In this document: in pieces, positions 7,675-16,654 of the stretch
Layout: every line of letters begins with the position of its first letter
Position numbering within the stretch: position 1 is the stretch's first letter
Assembly: GCA_003246265.1 (NCBI GenBank)
Contig: QKAU01000065.1
Coordinates: forward strand, 28,019 to 92,018
From: Kiritimatiellales bacterium
Lineage (GTDB): Bacteria > Verrucomicrobiota > Kiritimatiellia > Kiritimatiellales > Pontiellaceae
DNA: 64,000 nucleotides
Reading direction: 5' to 3'
Notes under the pieces: generated by a model
The model's database searches: none
Told to the model about the DNA's origin: nothing
What the model saw: only the letters and a program-made list of their open reading frames with translations
Position numbers and translations under genes: made by a program

Positions 7675-7781
7675 GTGTAATCTACCAAGTGCGCCTTTTT
7701 GTCGTCAAGTTCCCATCTTCCGGCTTTTCGAGGGGATTCCCGTTCTGTTAAATGCCGCTTTTTCATCGAGGGGAGAAGTTC

Positions 7782-8672
7782 ATGGCGCGACGGTTTGAAC
7801 GAGTAGCGGTCTTGAAGGGCGGGATTTCGTCGGAGCGGGAGGTCTCGCTACGTTCCGGGGCGGCCATCGCGCAAGGTCTGCGCTACGGGGGCTATGCGGT
7901 GGATGAAATCGACATGGTTTCCGAGGAGCTTCATCTGCCGGAGGGGGTCGAGGCGGTGTTCATCGCCCTGCACGGCCGGTTTGGCGAGGATGGAGGGATC
8001 CAGAGCAAGCTGGCGGAACGGGGGATGCCCTTCACCGGTTCGAGTGCGGAATCGAGCCGTGTTTCGTTCGACAAGGTCCTCACCCGTGAGCGGCTGGAGG
8101 CCTGCGGCATTCCGGTGCCGCGAGGCGAGGTGGTGAGGGCCGCTACGGAACGTACCCTGCCGCTCCCGCTGGTGGCCAAGCCGCCGCGCGAGGGATCAAG
8201 CGTGGGTTGCAATCTGGTGTTCGAGGAATCCGCATGGCCCGCCGCATTCGAGGACGCTGCGCGCTATTCGCCCGAAGTGCTGGTCGAGGCCTACATCCCG
8301 GGCCGCGAGCTGACGGTCGGCGTGGTGGACGGGCAGGTGCTGCCGGTCGTGGAGATCAAGCCGGCGGTCCAGTGGTACGACTACCAGGCCAAGTACGTCA
8401 CCGGCGACACGCAGTACATGGTCCCGGCCGAGCTTGACCCGGCCGTTGCGGCCCGGCTGCAGGAGATCGCGATGGCCACCTTCCTGGCGCTTGGCGCCGA
8501 GGGGTTTGGCCGGGTTGATATCCGCCTCGACCCCGGAAACGATCCCTACGTGCTGGAGCTGAACGCCATCCCCGGCTTCACCGCCACAAGCCTGCTCCCC
8601 AAGGCGGCGCAGGCGGCAGGAATCGGTTTTTCCGACCTTTGCTGTCGCATCGTGGAATTGGCTCACCTATAG
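7782..8672 (+). CDS. ddl: D-alanine--D-alanine ligase
   Basis: VAVLKGGISSEREVSLRSG, KPPREGSSVG, ELNAIPGFTATSLLP; SD ggggagaag. Confidence 0.94.
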   Translation: MARRFERVAVLKGGISSEREVSLRSGAAIAQGLRYGGYAVDEIDMVSEELHLPEGVEAVFIALHGRFGEDGGIQSKLAERGMPFTGSSAESSRVSFDKVLTRERLEACGIPVPRGEVVRAATERTLPLPLVAKPPREGSSVGCNLVFEESAWPAAFEDAARYSPEVLVEAYIPGRELTVGVVDGQVLPVVEIKPAVQWYDYQAKYVTGDTQYMVPAELDPAVAARLQEIAMATFLALGAEGFGRVDIRLDPGNDPYVLELNAIPGFTATSLLPKAAQAAGIGFSDLCCRIVELAHL

Positions 8673-8700
8673 TCCACGCATCAATTCCAAGGTGTCGGGA

Positions 8701-9537
8701 ATGGCAGCGCGCAAGAAGTTGAAAACCTACGCGAAACCGCAGTATGTGCGGGCGAAAAGGAAAGGCGGGGAGGGGTCCCTGCTGCCTCGTCGCGCCCTGA
8801 CCCTGGGGCTCCTCCTGCTGGTCGTGGCAGGCATCGTCTTCGGCATCGGGCAAGGATATGCCTGGATCAATCGCAAGCTCTTCTCGGAGAATCCCCGTTT
8901 CGAGATCCAGCACCTGGTCATCTCCTCCGACGGCAAGCTCTCCGAGGAGCGCATCCGCGAGTACACCGGCCTGCACGAGGGAACCAACCTGTTCGCCGTC
9001 TCCTTCCGGGAAATCGAGAAGAGCCTCGCCCAAGTGCCGCTGGTCGAATCGGTCGTGCTGGAGCGGAAGCTGCCCCACACCCTGACGGTCACGGTGAAGG
9101 AGCGGGTTGCGGTGGCGCGCATTTCCGGCCGGACCGAACGGAAGTTCCCCTACCTGGTCGACCGCTACGGCTACGTGCTCCCGCCCCGCCAGAACTCCGA
9201 GACCCTGCCCATGATCATGGGGCTGGAAAACGAGCCGGCGCTCAACACCCGGCTGGAGCATCCCGACGTGGAAACCGCGCTCAGGATCATCGCCATCTGC
9301 GACAGCAGCAGCTACCTGCGCAACTACGTGCGCCTGCTCAGCCTCGACGTACGCTATTCCGACTTCATCGACATGAGGCTCGAGGGCGGCATGCGCGTCC
9401 GCATGCCGCGCTATTCGCTCAAGCCGAAGCTGCAGAACCTGGCCACCGTCATCAAGATCGCCGCCGGGCAGGGGCAGCGCGTCAAGGAAGTCGACCTCAC
9501 CCTCGACTCGGGCAAGGTGCCCGTGACCTACTACTGA
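8701..9537 (+). CDS. ftsQ: Cell division protein FtsQ/DivIB (POTRA)
   Basis: Single N-terminal TM, FEIQHLVISSDGKLSEERIREYTGLHEGTNLFAVSFREIEKSLAQVPLVESVVLERKLPHTLTVTVKER; lies between ddl and ftsA. Confidence 0.87.
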   Translation: MAARKKLKTYAKPQYVRAKRKGGEGSLLPRRALTLGLLLLVVAGIVFGIGQGYAWINRKLFSENPRFEIQHLVISSDGKLSEERIREYTGLHEGTNLFAVSFREIEKSLAQVPLVESVVLERKLPHTLTVTVKERVAVARISGRTERKFPYLVDRYGYVLPPRQNSETLPMIMGLENEPALNTRLEHPDVETALRIIAICDSSSYLRNYVRLLSLDVRYSDFIDMRLEGGMRVRMPRYSLKPKLQNLATVIKIAAGQGQRVKEVDLTLDSGKVPVTYY

Positions 9538-9549
9538 TTCCGGAGCGCC

Positions 9550-10773
9550 ATGTCCATCGAAGCAACCGCCGTCTTGGAGATAGGGACCAGCCATGTGCGC
9601 GTGCTGGTGGGCGAACTGCGCGACGACGGCATCGTAACCGTGATCGCCCTGGGCGAAGCGCCTTCCAAGGGCATCCGCAAGGGGGAGATCGTCAACCGCG
9701 ACGACGTGGTCGCCAGCGTGCGCAAGGCGATCAAGGCCGCGGAGGAGAACCGGCGCAAGAGCATCCACTCCGTTGTGCTGGTGACTTCGGCGGGGCAGGC
9801 CGAGGACAAGCGCAGCACGGGGATCCACCGACTGGTGGATCCGGTCGACAACCGTCTCGCGGAAATCTCGCAGGAGGATGTGGCGGAAGTGCTGGAGATC
9901 GCCCGCAAGGTAGCCCTTCCCGACAATCGCATCAAGCTGCATACGCTGCAGCAGTATTTCCAGGTGGACGACATGCTCGGGGTGATCCACCCCGTCGGCA
10001 TGACCGGCGAGGAGCTGCGCGCCGACATGCTTACCATCCACGGCAAGCGGAGCTCGGTCGACAACTTCCGCAAGATTGTCGATGATGCGCCGATCGAATG
10101 CACGGATGCCGTCTTCAGCGGCCTCTGCACGGCCATCGCCGTCGTCAACGAGGAGCAGAAGAAGGCCGGAGCGCTCGTGATCGACATCGGCGGCGGCACG
10201 ACGGACTACGTCTTCTACCAGGACGGCTTCATCCAGGCCGCCGGGTCGTTCGCGCTCGGGGGCGGCCATGTTACGAACGACATCGCCGTGGGGCTGCAGA
10301 TTCCGGCCAGCCAGGCGGAGATGGTGAAATGCCGGGATGGCAGTGCGCTGACAAACCTCATGGAGCGCGACCACAACCTTTCCATCCCTGCGGTCCAAGG
10401 CTTCAGCAGCAAGATGGTCCGGGCGGTTACGCTCAACACGATCATCAATGCCCGCATGGAGGAGATCTTCACGCTGGTGAAGGACCGCATCGACGCGCAA
10501 TGCCCCAACGCCCCGCTCGGGGCGGGCGTCCTGCTGACGGGCGGCGGTGCCTTCCTCAATGGCGCACGCGACCTGGGGCAGAAGGTATTCAACGTTCCAT
10601 GCATGCACGGCAAGCCGTTCGATGTGCAGGGACTGCCGTCAGCCAAGGAGGGGCCGCTCTACGCAAGCCATGTCGGCGCGATCCGCTACGCGGCCTCGCT
10701 GCGCCACGTCGAGGAAAAGGTTCCGCTGGGACGGCGGCTGGTTCGGGTGCTGTGGGGAGGTGCGCATGAGTGA
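9550..10773 (+). CDS. ftsA: Cell division protein FtsA
   Basis: AVLEIGTSHVRVLVGEL, VIDIGGGTTDYVFYQDG, GVLLTGGGAFLNGA actin-like ATPase motifs. Confidence 0.93.
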   Translation: MSIEATAVLEIGTSHVRVLVGELRDDGIVTVIALGEAPSKGIRKGEIVNRDDVVASVRKAIKAAEENRRKSIHSVVLVTSAGQAEDKRSTGIHRLVDPVDNRLAEISQEDVAEVLEIARKVALPDNRIKLHTLQQYFQVDDMLGVIHPVGMTGEELRADMLTIHGKRSSVDNFRKIVDDAPIECTDAVFSGLCTAIAVVNEEQKKAGALVIDIGGGTTDYVFYQDGFIQAAGSFALGGGHVTNDIAVGLQIPASQAEMVKCRDGSALTNLMERDHNLSIPAVQGFSSKMVRAVTLNTIINARMEEIFTLVKDRIDAQCPNAPLGAGVLLTGGGAFLNGARDLGQKVFNVPCMHGKPFDVQGLPSAKEGPLYASHVGAIRYAASLRHVEEKVPLGRRLVRVLWGGAHE

Positions 10774-11911
10774 ATCCGCCGCGAATGATCTGCCGCTGGT
10801 CCGGCCGCCGCGCATCCTGGTGATGGGGGTGGGCAGCAGCGGCGCGCGCACTGTCTCGGGAATGAAGAGGCTCAACCCCACCTTGCCCGTTGCGGTGGTC
10901 GACACCGACACCCGGGTGCTGGACGCCCTCTCCGTCGAGCAGAAGATCCACGTGGGCGCATCGACCACCAGTGGGTTCAGCGCGGGGGGCGATGTCGAAC
11001 TGGGACGCCAGGCGATCGAGAAGGACTCCTCGAATATCCGACGGCTGTTGCGCCATGTCGACCTGCTTGTGCTGGTGGCGGGATTCGGCGGCGGAACGGG
11101 CTCGGGGGCCGTTCCCGTCATCGCCCGCATTGCGCGCGAAGCGGGTACGCTGGTGCTCTGCATGGTGGGCATGCCTTTCGCCTTCGAAGGGAAGCAGATC
11201 GCCCGCATCGCCGAAGAGGCGCTCAAGCGTACCCGTACGCATGCCGACGCCATCATCCGCATCCCCAATGAACGACTGATCGACCGCTCAGAGGCCGACC
11301 TTCCCGCCGAAAAGGCCTTTTCCCGCAGCCAGCAGTTGATGGCCGACGCGCTCTTCGCCCTTCAGCGCCTGCTGGCCAGCAAGGGCGTGGTGGACCTCGA
11401 TTTCGCCTGCATCCAGACCATGCTGCGCAACTGCGACGGCTTCTGCCACCTGGCGACCGCGGATGGATCCGGTCCGGATCGGGCGGGGCAGGTGGCGCAG
11501 GCGCTGACGGCCCATCCCCTGCTCAACGGCGGCAAGCTGCTGGGCAGCGCGGCCGGTCTGGTGCTAGGCCTGACCGGGGGGCCGGACCTGCGGCTTAGCG
11601 AGATCGAAACGGTCATGGAGCGCATCCACGCGACGCTTCCGGAAGAGGTGTGGATGAACTTTGGCGTGGTGCTCGACCCTGCGTTCGAGGGGCGGTTGGC
11701 GCTGTTGGCGCTGGTGGCCGAGCAGTGGAAGGAGCCGCTGGTGGATGCGGCAGGGCGGCAGACCTTTTTCCGCTACGACCGGGGGCAGGGTGAACTTCCA
11801 CTGGAGCTGGTGGGCAAGGGGGAGTTCGCGCAGGTCGATCCCACCATCCACAACAACCAGGACCTGGACGTGCCCACCTACATCCGGCGGGACATCAAGC
11901 TGCCGCGCTGA
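10766..11911 (+). CDS. ftsZ: Divergent cell division protein FtsZ
   Basis: ILVMGVGSSGARTVSGMK, GFGGGTGSGAVPVIARIAREAGTLVLCMVGMPFAFEGKQ, IPNERL; C-terminal peptide DLDVPTYIRRDI; start overlaps ftsA stop. Confidence 0.9.
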   Translation: MSESAANDLPLVRPPRILVMGVGSSGARTVSGMKRLNPTLPVAVVDTDTRVLDALSVEQKIHVGASTTSGFSAGGDVELGRQAIEKDSSNIRRLLRHVDLLVLVAGFGGGTGSGAVPVIARIAREAGTLVLCMVGMPFAFEGKQIARIAEEALKRTRTHADAIIRIPNERLIDRSEADLPAEKAFSRSQQLMADALFALQRLLASKGVVDLDFACIQTMLRNCDGFCHLATADGSGPDRAGQVAQALTAHPLLNGGKLLGSAAGLVLGLTGGPDLRLSEIETVMERIHATLPEEVWMNFGVVLDPAFEGRLALLALVAEQWKEPLVDAAGRQTFFRYDRGQGELPLELVGKGEFAQVDPTIHNNQDLDVPTYIRRDIKLPR

Positions 11912-11913
11912 CG

Positions 11914-12537
11914 CTACTGCATGAAGTAGTTGGTGGCCCGCTCGGTGCCGATGGTGGTGGAGGGGCCGTGGCCCGGATAGACGGAGACCTCGTCGGGCAG
12001 CTGCTTCAGCTTGTTGAGTGATTCCTTGAGCTGCCTCGGATTCCCCCCGGGAAGATCGGTGCGTCCGCAGGATCCCTTGAATAGCGTATCGCCCGCAATC
12101 AGCACTCCGCCTTCCGGAAACAGGAGGCAGCACGAACCCGGCGTATGGCCCGGGGTTTCGATGCATTGGAAGTGCAGATCGCCATACATCCAATCCTTGC
12201 GGCTCTCGAGCGGTTCGAATCCATCGCACTCCGGCCGTTTTGGGACGGCATAGTAGGGCTCGATCCGGTTCAGCGGTCCGAAGGCCCAGGCGAGATCGAG
12301 CGAATGCATTGCTATGGGGGCGGGATGGCGGGTGTGGAGCTCGGCGAGGGCGTTGATGTGGTCGGCGTGGCCGTGGGTGCAGACATAGGCGGCCACGTGG
12401 ATCCGGTTCGCTTCAAGGCGGCGGGCAATCACCTCGGAATCGCATCCCGGGTCGAAGACGATCGCCTGCTGCGCCGAGCCCCAGGCCAGGTAGCAGATCT
12501 CCTGGAAAGGGCCGGTGGGAATGCCTTCGATCTTCAT
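11914..12537 (-). CDS. MBL-fold metallo-hydrolase (hydroxyacylglutathione hydrolase-like)
   Basis: THGHADH, ETPGHTPGSCCL, FKGSCGRTDLPGG, PGHG motifs. Confidence 0.9.
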   Translation of the reverse strand: MKIEGIPTGPFQEICYLAWGSAQQAIVFDPGCDSEVIARRLEANRIHVAAYVCTHGHADHINALAELHTRHPAPIAMHSLDLAWAFGPLNRIEPYYAVPKRPECDGFEPLESRKDWMYGDLHFQCIETPGHTPGSCCLLFPEGGVLIAGDTLFKGSCGRTDLPGGNPRQLKESLNKLKQLPDEVSVYPGHGPSTTIGTERATNYFMQ

Positions 12538-13070
12538 GGGGCCGGCTTGCGGGTATAGGCGCAGTGGATGACCATGCTGCCCTTTAGCTGGCCGCTGTTC
12601 TGCCCGACCGGCTGGACGGTAAGCGTGCGCACATCGTACCGCACGCCCTGCCGCTGCAGGTCGGCCAGGAAGTCTACCATCGCCTCGAGCGACCCGTTCC
12701 AGCTGCAGTTGATGCCCAGCTCGAACAGGTCGCCGGTGGGCTTTTCGGCGTAGGGTTGGCTGCGGGTGATCTCCATGCCGTACTGGTCGGCGAATGCCTT
12801 GATCGTCTTCATCAGCTCAGGTGAAACCGTGCGCCCCCCGTCTTCGAAGACGCGCAGGTCCTGCTGCAGCTCGTTGAGCTCGCCCACCCAGTTCTCCTGC
12901 ATCTTGATGGCGTTCTCGTGGAAGCCGATCTGCTGCCGGATCTTTTCGATTTCGGACTTCTGCGCCCGCCACTCCTCCATCCTGCGGTCGACGACGTACC
13001 AGGTGCCGCCGAACAGCAGGCAGGCCAGCGTGGCCACGCCGAGGATCATCTCGCGTTCGGAAATCTTCAT
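12534..13070 (-). CDS. GspM/PilO-like type II secretion protein
   Basis: N-terminal TM plus coiled coil; directly downstream of GspL-like gene with ATGA overlap. Confidence 0.65.
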   Translation of the reverse strand: MKISEREMILGVATLACLLFGGTWYVVDRRMEEWRAQKSEIEKIRQQIGFHENAIKMQENWVGELNELQQDLRVFEDGGRTVSPELMKTIKAFADQYGMEITRSQPYAEKPTGDLFELGINCSWNGSLEAMVDFLADLQRQGVRYDVRTLTVQPVGQNSGQLKGSMVIHCAYTRKPAP

Positions 13071-14461
13071 GACTCCTCCTCGACGGCTGGCAGGTCGAGC
13101 GTGACCGAGAAGACGGAGCGGCGTCCTTCCTTCGTAGCCTTCGTGTTGACCGACTGGTCCTTGAGGCGGGTGAACAGCTTGGATCCGGTCAAGGCCTCGA
13201 AATAGTTGTAGACCAGGTCGTCGCTTTCGGCGGTGCCGCGCAGGGAGACGCCCTTGCCCTTGGTGTAGTTGAAGGTGACGAACTCGATGTCGCCGAACGG
13301 GAGGAGCCGGGTGGTCTCCCTCAGGCACTCCAGCGCGGAATCGGATCGGTCGGTGTAGATCTTGAGCGCCTTGAGCTTCTGCCGGTTCTCCAGGGCCTGC
13401 CGGGCCTTCGGGGCGATGGTGGCGGCCTGCTTGCGGACCGATTCCAGCTGGAGGTTGCGGATCTGGAAGATGGTGAAGAAGACCAGCGAGACAACGAGCC
13501 ATGTCCCTGCGATGCCGGCAGAGATGAAGGCATACTTGCGGCGCAGCTGCTGCCACTTCTGGAGGTCGATCCATTCCTGCGGGATGAGTTCGATGCGGTT
13601 GCCGGTGTCCTGCGCCCGCCGGACGATCCCTTCAGAGAGCGACGGCAGGATTGCAAGATCCTGCGTTTCGACACGCAGGCCGGTCTTCGCCGACAGTTTG
13701 GCCTGCAGGGTGGAGGGAACGCCCCCGAAGCTCCAGAGCTGGAACGAGGCGGGGGCGGACAGGTCGTACTCGGTATCCAGCACGGTCAGCGTATAGGCGA
13801 TGTCCTGGGTCAGTTCATCGACAACATCGGCATCGCCCAGATGCGACTGCAGGGAGCGGATGGCCAACGGTCGGCCATCGCGGAGAACGACCAGTTCGAG
13901 CTCCATGCCGTCGTCGATCACCATGACCGCGCAGCCTTCCGCCTGGAGGAGCGCCTGGTCGCGCATGAGGCGCAACCATCCGAGCACGCGGACATCGATG
14001 CTGTGGATATGGACCCCCTTGCGGCCGAAGGCCTCTCCAATGGCGTCGATTCTCTCGCGCTTTGCGGCCGCCATGAGGACAAGGGCCTCTTCTTCGCCGG
14101 ATTCCAGCACCTCGTGGGCGACGGCCAGCTGGTCTAGGGGGAAGGGGGAGGCCTTGTCGACCTGGAAGCCGACCATGGAGGCGATCTCCCCCCGATCGGC
14201 CGTGGGGAACCGCACCGTCCGCAGCAGCAGCTCGGAGGTGGGCATCGCCACCGAAAGGTCGCCCTTGAGCGTTTCCGCAACCGCAGTGTCCGCAGGATCG
14301 GATTCCGGTGCCTCTCCTTCCAGGGCGATCGCGTCGATGAACAGGGGTAGCCGCCCCTGGCCGCATGGCTCGGGACCTTCGGGGCGCAGCTTCAGGCTGG
14401 TCCACTCGAAACCGTCGGCCGTACGGCAGGCCGCCGTTATGATCTTTTCGCTAATTCGCAT
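13067..14461 (-). CDS. GspL/PilM-PilN-like type II secretion protein
   Basis: Actin-like N-terminal half (VMPTSELLLRTVRFPTADRGEIASMVGFQVDKASPFPLDQLAVAHEVL) then one TM and PilN-like C-terminus. Confidence 0.7.
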   Translation of the reverse strand: MRISEKIITAACRTADGFEWTSLKLRPEGPEPCGQGRLPLFIDAIALEGEAPESDPADTAVAETLKGDLSVAMPTSELLLRTVRFPTADRGEIASMVGFQVDKASPFPLDQLAVAHEVLESGEEEALVLMAAAKRERIDAIGEAFGRKGVHIHSIDVRVLGWLRLMRDQALLQAEGCAVMVIDDGMELELVVLRDGRPLAIRSLQSHLGDADVVDELTQDIAYTLTVLDTEYDLSAPASFQLWSFGGVPSTLQAKLSAKTGLRVETQDLAILPSLSEGIVRRAQDTGNRIELIPQEWIDLQKWQQLRRKYAFISAGIAGTWLVVSLVFFTIFQIRNLQLESVRKQAATIAPKARQALENRQKLKALKIYTDRSDSALECLRETTRLLPFGDIEFVTFNYTKGKGVSLRGTAESDDLVYNYFEALTGSKLFTRLKDQSVNTKATKEGRRSVFSVTLDLPAVEEES

Positions 14462-15464
14462 TTTTCCCGACCGGCCCCTCGCTCCAGTAGACGACCGCCG
14501 ATCCGGCGTCCTTCAGGAGGAAGATGCATTCGATTCTAAACTGGTTGCCGTATAGTTCGCCGATAGACGTTACCTTTACGAAATTACTTTGCAATTTAAA
14601 TTTGTTCGGGTCGGCCCCCACGTCGTTCAGGTTCCTGATGCCGTCGTCGAGCGTGCCCTCCTCTCCGTCCAGTCCCATGCGGGTCTCGAGGACCCCGGCC
14701 AGCTCCCAATCCTCGTATTCGGCGTAGCTGAGCAGCAGGTTGGTGCTGGCTGTGTTGAGATTCACTTTGCCATCGCCCCAAACGGTCAGGATGTCGGCAA
14801 CGCCGGTAATGGCTTCGCTCTCCTCGTCGGCCGGCTTGCCGTACAGCACGTCGGGACCCCAGCTCTTGATGTAGAGCAACTCCTCGACGCTGTCGAGCGG
14901 CCCGTTTTTCACGGGATAGCCCCGTTCCTCGTAGAACGGGTCGTCCGACTCGGCGCCGTTAAGGCCATGGAGGTCGTTGTCGTCGATCCAGTCTTCGAGA
15001 CAGTCGATCATGGCGTCCCATTCCGTCGAGGGCACGTTGGCCATATCGAAGATTTCGAGCCACTGGTCGCGGGTCAGCAGGTTGGCATTGCGTCCGGATT
15101 CCGCCGCCTCGATGGTGACGGTGAACTTGCCGCCCTCCTCCAACTCGATGCTTGAGGTGGTGGAGAGTCCCCGCTGGACATAGAGTGCCGCCTGCATGAA
15201 GCCGTCGCGGTCTTCCGCCATGTCCTCGATCTCCAGCTCCTTGGCGGTGCGGCGGGTGTCGAGGATGGCCCGGGCGTACTCGATGCCGGAGCGCGCCAGC
15301 ATTTCGGCGTGGAACTTCTTCTTCTTGAAAGAGATGAGCATCGATTCGAGTTTCACCTCGAAGGCAAAGGAGCCGACGATCAGCGAAAGGATGATCATGA
15401 CCCAGAGGGCCGCCAGGAGGGCGGCACCCTCTTTCTTCCGGTAGGCTGGACGGGGGGCATGCAT
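14451..15464 (-). CDS. gspK: General secretion pathway protein GspK-like minor pseudopilin
   Basis: KEGAALLAALWVMIILSLIVGSFAFEVKLE; central WEAMIDCLEDWIDDNDLHGLNGAE; C-terminal helix-hairpin region KVNLNTAS. Confidence 0.82.
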   Translation of the reverse strand: MHAPRPAYRKKEGAALLAALWVMIILSLIVGSFAFEVKLESMLISFKKKKFHAEMLARSGIEYARAILDTRRTAKELEIEDMAEDRDGFMQAALYVQRGLSTTSSIELEEGGKFTVTIEAAESGRNANLLTRDQWLEIFDMANVPSTEWDAMIDCLEDWIDDNDLHGLNGAESDDPFYEERGYPVKNGPLDSVEELLYIKSWGPDVLYGKPADEESEAITGVADILTVWGDGKVNLNTASTNLLLSYAEYEDWELAGVLETRMGLDGEEGTLDDGIRNLNDVGADPNKFKLQSNFVKVTSIGELYGNQFRIECIFLLKDAGSAVVYWSEGPVGKNAN

Positions 15465-15467
15465 GTG

Positions 15468-16247
15468 TCAGGGCGCCGCCTTTTGCGGGGCGGGAGTGGG
15501 GGCCTGGCCGCCGTCGGAGGCCTTGCCCGCCGCGGAGGCCCCGAGGGTCGGTCCGGAAAGCCGTGCGGCAAGCGACTCGTAGACGGGCGGCTCGATCACC
15601 CGGGAGAAGACCACGGGATCGTCGCCGCTGGCTTCGTCGGCCACGTAGAAGAGGGAAAGGTGGATGCGTTCGGGGATGCTGTTTTCCGGGGTCCATTCCT
15701 CGCTCCAGTCCTCCGTCTCCTTGTCCCAGAAGAGGATCTCGAGACCGCGGATCGCACGGGAAACGAGAATCGGCTCGGCTTCGAAGGCATCTTCGAATTC
15801 CTCCTCGTCGGCAATGGCCGGCATGGGCAGGGCGAAGAGGGCGGGGTCGCCGTATTCGTCGTCATCGATGAAGAGCCTGATGCGGTGGGGGCCCGAAACG
15901 TAGGGGGATCCGTCCGGCATGAAGGCGCCGCTCGCCGTGACGAAGCTGATCATGTCGGTGGGCAGCCCGCCCGCGTTGCTCTTTTCGAAGCGGAAGGCAT
16001 ACACCTTGCGCGGATTGGTGAAATAGATGGTCGAGTTGAGTGCCGAAGCCAACTGGCCCATGGCGAAATCCCCATGCTCAATGGCATCGAGCACTTCCGT
16101 GCCCCGTTTCCACCCGTGGATGGTGCCCGTGAAGGCATTGAAGGCGATCGACATCGCGATCGTCAGGATGACGATGGCCACGATCATCTCGAGCAGGGTG
16201 AAGCCCGAGCGCATCAGGCGATGGTCTCTGTATTCGCAAGGGCTCAT
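15468..16247 (-). CDS. gspJ: GspJ-like minor pseudopilin
   Basis: MRSGFTLLEMIVAIVILTIAMSIAFNAF prepilin N-terminus; ATGA overlap with upstream gene. Confidence 0.75.
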   Translation of the reverse strand: MSPCEYRDHRLMRSGFTLLEMIVAIVILTIAMSIAFNAFTGTIHGWKRGTEVLDAIEHGDFAMGQLASALNSTIYFTNPRKVYAFRFEKSNAGGLPTDMISFVTASGAFMPDGSPYVSGPHRIRLFIDDDEYGDPALFALPMPAIADEEEFEDAFEAEPILVSRAIRGLEILFWDKETEDWSEEWTPENSIPERIHLSLFYVADEASGDDPVVFSRVIEPPVYESLAARLSGPTLGASAAGKASDGGQAPTPAPQKAAP

Positions 16248-16654
16248 GTTCTGCTCGTCACGCTTTCGGCCTTGGGTTCGTATCGGTAGACGGTGACCTC
16301 CTCGAAGGCATCGCGGCCGCGTTCCGACCACTCTATGCGGGTGGTGACCATGAAGAGGCCCGGCCGTTCCTCCGCATCGACCATCGTCACTTCGCGCTGC
16401 CACGTGTAGCCCGGGGTGTCGTCGAACGTGCCGGTCTCCGAGGTCTCGTCGATCTCCTCGGCCGTGATGGGGAACTCGATCTCCACGCGCTGGATGAGGG
16501 CATGGGCCGTTTCGCGGTTACGGGCCGTGCGGACCACGGCGAGGCAGCGCGACATGGCCATCATCATCGCGGAAACGCCCACGCTCAGGATGATCAGGGC
16601 GATGAGCACCTCGATGAGGGTCAGACCGTGCTTGGATGCGGGACGTTTTTCCAT
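16244..16654 (-). CDS. gspI: GspI-like minor pseudopilin
   Basis: KHGLTLIEVLIALIILSVGVSAMMMAMSRC prepilin N-terminus; gene order I-J-K. Confidence 0.78.
   Translation of the reverse strand: MEKRPASKHGLTLIEVLIALIILSVGVSAMMMAMSRCLAVVRTARNRETAHALIQRVEIEFPITAEEIDETSETGTFDDTPGYTWQREVTMVDAEERPGLFMVTTRIEWSERGRDAFEEVTVYRYEPKAESVTSRT

Follow-up and report, generated by a model that had tools for sequence, protein, structure and literature searches.

The window, a stretch of 64,000 nucleotides from a Kiritimatiellales bacterium (assembly GCA_003246265.1, contig QKAU01000065.1, positions 28,019 to 92,018), encodes an FtsZ in which most of the catalytic residues at the subunit interface are replaced, including the T7-loop aspartate D212. 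On balance, we favour the reading that this protein works as the only division FtsZ of the bacterium, a member of the genus Pontiella. It would still bind nucleotide and form filaments, with a rebuilt inter-subunit GTPase site at which hydrolysis is slowed and probably not abolished.

The ftsZ gene and its genomic context

The ftsZ gene (10766..11911, forward strand) is a complete coding sequence of 381 amino acids with an ATG start, a stop codon and no internal stops. It is preceded on the same strand by ddl (7752..8672; PF07478, PF01820), ftsQ (8692..9537; PF08478, PF03799) and ftsA (9550..10773; PF14450, PF02491), the last of which it overlaps by 8 bp, and the order ddl-ftsQ-ftsA-ftsZ provides a dcw context. 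The first-pass annotation had described this gene as the only ftsZ seen in such a cluster and had proposed searching the rest of the genome for a second, canonical copy. The description is upheld by the Pfam assignments of the neighbours, and the search of the source genome, which is 95.95% complete, returned one PF00091 and one PF12327 match and hence a single tubulin-family gene. Further along the window, at 12534-16654 on the reverse strand, open reading frames resemble a type II secretion gspM-L-K-J-I set, as judged by their translations only.

The window protein scores 115.8 bits against PF00091 (cut-off 33) and 45.4 bits against PF12327 (cut-off 27). Against the FtsZ equivalog TIGR00065 it reaches 201.7 bits, whereas the curated threshold lies at 295.2. 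In a scan of 27 members of the order, every one matched TIGR00065 at E<=0.001, which is an E-value criterion and not the 295.2-bit cut-off. An AlphaFold model built from 27 sequences had a mean pLDDT of 76, with the core mostly at 80-90. When this model was submitted to Foldseek, the top PDB matches were all FtsZ (E 8e-33; TM-score 0.87 to 8h1o), as were the nearest relatives of solved structure. At the level of this predicted structure, the FtsZ fold is confirmed.

The inter-subunit GTPase site in the genus Pontiella

The GTPase site between FtsZ subunits consists of six residues that are conserved across species, in E. coli D45, Q47, R142, N207, D209 and D212 (PMC8936486). D209 swings and thereby positions the attacking water, a bridging water joins D212 and R142, and a K+ ion is held by N207 together with Q47 (PMC8936486). 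Throughout this text, residues are numbered as in E. coli K-12 FtsZ (aligned reference L032), and numbers of the window protein, designated query, are given beside them. All motifs lie on the forward strand.

In the T7 synergy loop (GVVDLDFACIQ, 11384..11416), N207 is replaced by query D210 and D212 by query C215 (Cys codon at 11408-11410), whereas D209 is kept as query D212. These substitutions had been proposed at first pass, and they are borne out by an alignment to E. coli FtsZ that is free of gaps in T7. Displacement of the aspartate by an indel, named beforehand as the finding that would overturn the proposal, is thereby rejected. The alignment equally bears out the change of GGGGGNAV to GSSGARTV within the T1 phosphate loop (GVGSSGARTV, 10826..10855; G20S, G21S and N24R) and that of NTDAQAL to DTDTRVL in T2 (10901..10921), where N43 is replaced by query D46 and Q47 by query R50, and D45 is kept as query D48. 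In T5/H5 (11171..11206), P134 and E138 are kept and R142 is replaced by query I145. The changes at R142 and Q47 are two catalytic-network changes absent from the first-pass annotation. Altogether, the window FtsZ retains only D45 and D209 of the six-residue network, with R50, I145, D210 and C215 (query numbering) at the other four sites.

Other parts of the protein are conserved. G71 is kept in the aligned T3 loop (GFSAGGDVELGR, 10973..11008), the tubulin signature GGGTGSG in T4 (11087..11107) is intact, and N165 is retained. The start of H7 (AFSRSQQ, 11315..11335) carries query Q189 at position 186, a position on the side of the base that is D or N elsewhere. Since guanine-side residues are changed, it is uncertain from the sequence which nucleotide the protein would use. 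A C-terminal linker of about 46 amino acids (11720..11857) leads to the C-terminal peptide QDLDVPTYIRRDIKLPR (11858..11908), which has a mean identity of 90% within the genus. The presence of GGGTGSG and of a conserved C-terminal peptide (DLDVPTYIRRDI / DLDVPTYIRRDIKLPR) was thus correctly recognised at first pass.

The altered site is common to the whole genus. Among 22 distinct Pontiella FtsZ sequences, a set from which the split gene L019 and also the paralogue L174 were left out, position 212 is Cys in 15 and Ser in the remaining seven, while D45 and D209 never vary. None of the 22 has kept N207, which is Gly in 19; its replacement by Asp is private to the window species. Lys or Arg occupies position 47 in 21 of the 22. 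In 18 sequences R142 is lost, and one further sequence carries Lys there. Consequently, 19 sequences retain two of the six network residues and the other three retain three, compared to five or six in the 13 control sequences. The named relatives belong to the Kiritimatiellales/Pontiellaceae and include the isolate Pontiella sulfatireligans F21T (L075). Because all 22 distinct members carry Cys or Ser, the loss of D212 is beyond chance; it is a lineage trait and not an oddity of one genome.

A PF00091 match was found in 23 of 28 genus genomes and represented a single gene in 22 of these 23; in G024, a split match stems from a single interrupted gene. The genomes without a match (G023, G002, G010, G011 and G364) are mostly fragmented or incomplete, so that assembly gaps are the likely cause; in G023, contig C426 holds an FtsZ C-terminal fragment only. 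The sole second PF00091 match in the genus is a distant PhuZ-like tubulin. Second tubulin-like proteins of 366 amino acids with the motif GGGTGNG are encoded in two genomes of the order, at L174:122-1222 (G009) and L175:887-1984 (G028), and one of the two weakly matches the phage tubulin PhuZ family. Both were rejected as FtsZ orthologues, being distant and, in the case of L174, PhuZ-like. No such protein was found in the genome of the window.

The Pontiella ftsZ gene is under purifying selection. Between close pairs dN/dS is about 0.06-0.16, which is a rough estimate given a dS of 0.8-1.5 and an aligned stretch that takes in some upstream codons. Among 18 close members, the mean pairwise identity of T7/H8 is 79%, as compared to 74% for the GTPase domain and 64% for the C-terminal domain. 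T7/H8 thus ranks with the best-conserved regions of the protein, and together with the dN/dS values this argues for a constrained new state of the genus rather than decay. The term 'degenerate', used for this FtsZ at first pass, is accordingly misleading; 'rebuilt and constrained' describes it better. The short C-terminal linker has a mean pairwise identity of 70% in close Pontiella, level with the domains, whereas in family f36 the region after residue 316 shows 33% identity against 82% in the core. Such conservation is unusual for an FtsZ linker.

These data bear directly on the idea that the gene is a decaying pseudogene, an assembly error or a paralogue that no longer serves as the division FtsZ. 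The sub-threshold TIGR00065 score would fit such an idea. It is nevertheless very improbable, considering that the altered site recurs in independent genomes, including that of the F21T isolate, that the gene is under purifying selection in its dcw cluster position, that the genome holds no other FtsZ, and that the C-terminal peptide is conserved.

T7 acids in the order and across the Verrucomicrobiota

Within the order, the sister family f2 mostly carries S, T, A or N at position 212, with D in two members; N207 and Q47 are kept there as well. On the gene tree, the D212-bearing sequences lie near the base of f2, which suggests, on modest branch support, that the order lost D212 in parallel and not just once. 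A separate feature of f2 (L022-L031, L170-L172) is that the T4 threonine T108 is Phe (GGGFGTG) in 13 of 14 sequences and Leu in one, and that F182 is replaced by Leu or Met, which would mean that the nucleotide pocket itself has changed in this family. Among members of the class, in families f7 (L182-L184) and f12 (L116, L122, L125, L179-L181), D212 is mostly Arg or His and N165 is lost in most members, with weak PF00091 scores in f7; judged by sequence, these FtsZ proteins appear strongly eroded.

Across the phylum, 177 distinct Verrucomicrobiota FtsZ sequences were compared. Acids at both 209 and 212 are present in 53, exactly one is missing in 123 (212 only in 81, 209 only in 42), and a single sequence lacks both. 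Both acids are kept in 13 of 13 FtsZ from other phyla, namely that of E. coli and 12 from plasmid records (Bacillota, Actinomycetota, Pseudomonadota, Spirochaetota, Campylobacterota, Bacteroidota and Archaea). On a tree computed after removal of the T7 columns, at least 12 changes are needed at 209 and 17 at 212. A model in which the two sites depend on one another outperformed independence (LR 14.7, p 0.005); the phylum was sampled non-randomly, and the p-values presuppose a quickly made gene tree with many weak branches. When independence was simulated, one double loss or fewer occurred in 2.5% of runs, and in 0.1% of runs with similar numbers of single losses. The independent-pairs test in Treekit for this mutual exclusion yielded few supported pairs only.

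As in Pontiella, one T7 acid is thus missing from most other Verrucomicrobiota FtsZ. Unlike Pontiella, these lineages have either lost D209 or changed D212 to A, T or R with R142 kept, and the full set of Pontiella changes is found in most members of no other group sampled. In families f36, f39, f44 and f60 (for example L033, L051 and L052), D209 is Gly and D212 is kept or replaced by Glu (GLDDL, GLDEL), the converse of what is seen in Pontiella. Several one-acid lineages carry another acid at position 211 (GLDDL, LDAERL); no such acid is present in Pontiella or in the D212A/T lineages. Two further candidate rules were rejected at the level of the phylum. The presence of Lys or Arg at position 47 did not significantly accompany the loss of N207 (Pagel p 0.095), so that replacement of K+ by this side chain is not supported as a phylum-wide rule. 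Likewise, the joint loss of D212 and R142, associated in raw counts (Fisher 9e-7), disappeared once the tree was allowed for (Pagel p 0.43).

Conceivably, the Pontiella site is chemically compensated and hydrolyses GTP at an essentially normal rate, D209 catalysing, Cys or Ser at 212 holding a water, Lys or Arg at 47 replacing K+, and, in the window species, D207 adding charge. The restriction of position 212 to Cys or Ser in 22 sequences within a highly conserved T7 looks selected, and the invariance of D209 in the genus and the near-constant retention of one T7 acid across the phylum point in the same direction. We consider full compensation rather unlikely, however, because most of the genus has also lost R142, the working partner of D212, the position-47 and N207 changes do not co-vary significantly, and D207 is private to the window species. 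Moreover, D212A costs E. coli FtsZ more than 90% of its activity, leaving about 7% (PMC8142252).

At the other extreme, the protein could be a GTPase-dead structural FtsZ that binds nucleotide and polymerises, its turnover being left to other proteins or to slow exchange. In its favour, most genus members have replacements at four of six network residues. Liposomes can be constricted by FtsZ that does not hydrolyse, and where wild-type FtsZ is present in the cell, FtsZ(D212A) is able to contribute functional septa (PMC4383033). Against this, D209 and D45 are strictly kept. Were hydrolysis dispensable, one would expect many sequences to lack both T7 acids, but only one of 177 does. We regard a dead enzyme as unlikely. 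The nearest analogue of such an interface is that within the alpha-beta tubulin dimer, where beta-tubulin T7 retains the D209 equivalent, has Lys at the D212 position in place of the acid, and forms an interface without GTP hydrolysis. In tubulin, only one of two interfaces is non-hydrolysing; in a Pontiella homopolymer every interface would be.

A proposed slow FtsZ and its meaning for division

A slow but working FtsZ remains the favoured explanation. The window protein keeps the phosphate loops T3/T4, D45 on the Mg side, E138, N165 and a C-terminal peptide of the FtsA-binding type, and the genome encodes FtsA, FtsQ, two FtsW/RodA-family proteins, MreB and FtsK as division partners. Pontiella FtsZ would bind nucleotide and form filaments anchored by FtsA. 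Hydrolysis at the interface would be slow, since D209 alone remains to position the attacking water; speculatively, Lys or Arg at position 47 may substitute for the K+ ion. Slow hydrolysis would in turn slow filament turnover, and the ring would be nearer to a stable scaffold or be taken apart by other factors.

With canonical FtsZ (E. coli, S. aureus; TIGR00065) the window protein shares full-length homology, fold, the place after ftsA, T3/T4, D209 and the C-terminal peptide. It differs in the replacement of D212, R142, N207 and Q47, in the changes at N24 and position 186, and in falling below the TIGR00065 cut-off. The same T7 aspartate is missing from the laboratory mutants E. coli FtsZ(D212A) and B. 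subtilis FtsZ(D213A) (PMC8142252, PMC4383033, PMC8079713). In E. coli, D212A combined with wild-type FtsZ and extra FtsA gave constricting rings and septa that close (PMC4383033); in B. subtilis, D213A beside wild-type FtsZ gave thick, stable and less effective rings (PMC8079713). While these mutants acted in vivo next to wild-type FtsZ, the Pontiella protein is a natural only copy with further active-site changes. Contrary to the favoured explanation, treadmilling is reported to be essential in B. subtilis (PMC8079713). In addition, the S. aureus substitutions R143Q, N208L and D213N each block assembly (PMC8936486), and by transfer Pontiella FtsZ should not polymerise, unless its interface has been rebuilt elsewhere. 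Of the earlier suggestion of 'altered or absent' GTPase activity, the first part has good inferential support from D212A, D213N, R143Q and N208L. Absence is possible and seems less likely than slow hydrolysis, as D209 and D45 are invariant and the phylum almost always keeps one T7 acid.

Accelerated ftsZ evolution in Verrucomicrobia was noted in one paper for Methylacidiphilum, with the data not shown, and, by citation, for Prosthecobacter; a referee of that paper calls the Lentisphaera ftsZ non-functional (PMC2474590). The FtsZ of V. spinosum has been described as among the most divergent, owing to a C-terminal extension, and dcw genes as conserved in Kiritimatiellota (PMC12283558). Pontiella agarivorans divides by binary fission and has FtsZ-family genes in its genome (PMC10880615). 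We found no statement on the T7 aspartates of Verrucomicrobiota in the open-access literature searched; earlier notice elsewhere is possible. Tests of whether FtsZ-driven division needs GTPase activity and treadmilling have mostly relied on mutants of a few model species, in many cases with wild-type FtsZ present.

Tentatively, and with some doubt, Pontiella may divide with a very slow or non-hydrolysing FtsZ, as may much of the Verrucomicrobiota by way of other single losses, so that Z-ring turnover would be independent of GTPase-driven treadmilling, a one-acid T7 having been reached repeatedly and from both sides, almost never with loss of both acids. The loss of the catalytic aspartates one at a time would place these lineages in a phylogenetic series on the path to those PVC bacteria that have no FtsZ. 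With a single-copy FtsZ that lacks these residues in cultured, binary-fission bacteria, Pontiella offers a natural test of the requirement for hydrolysis, and the need for GTP hydrolysis in FtsZ-based division becomes directly testable.
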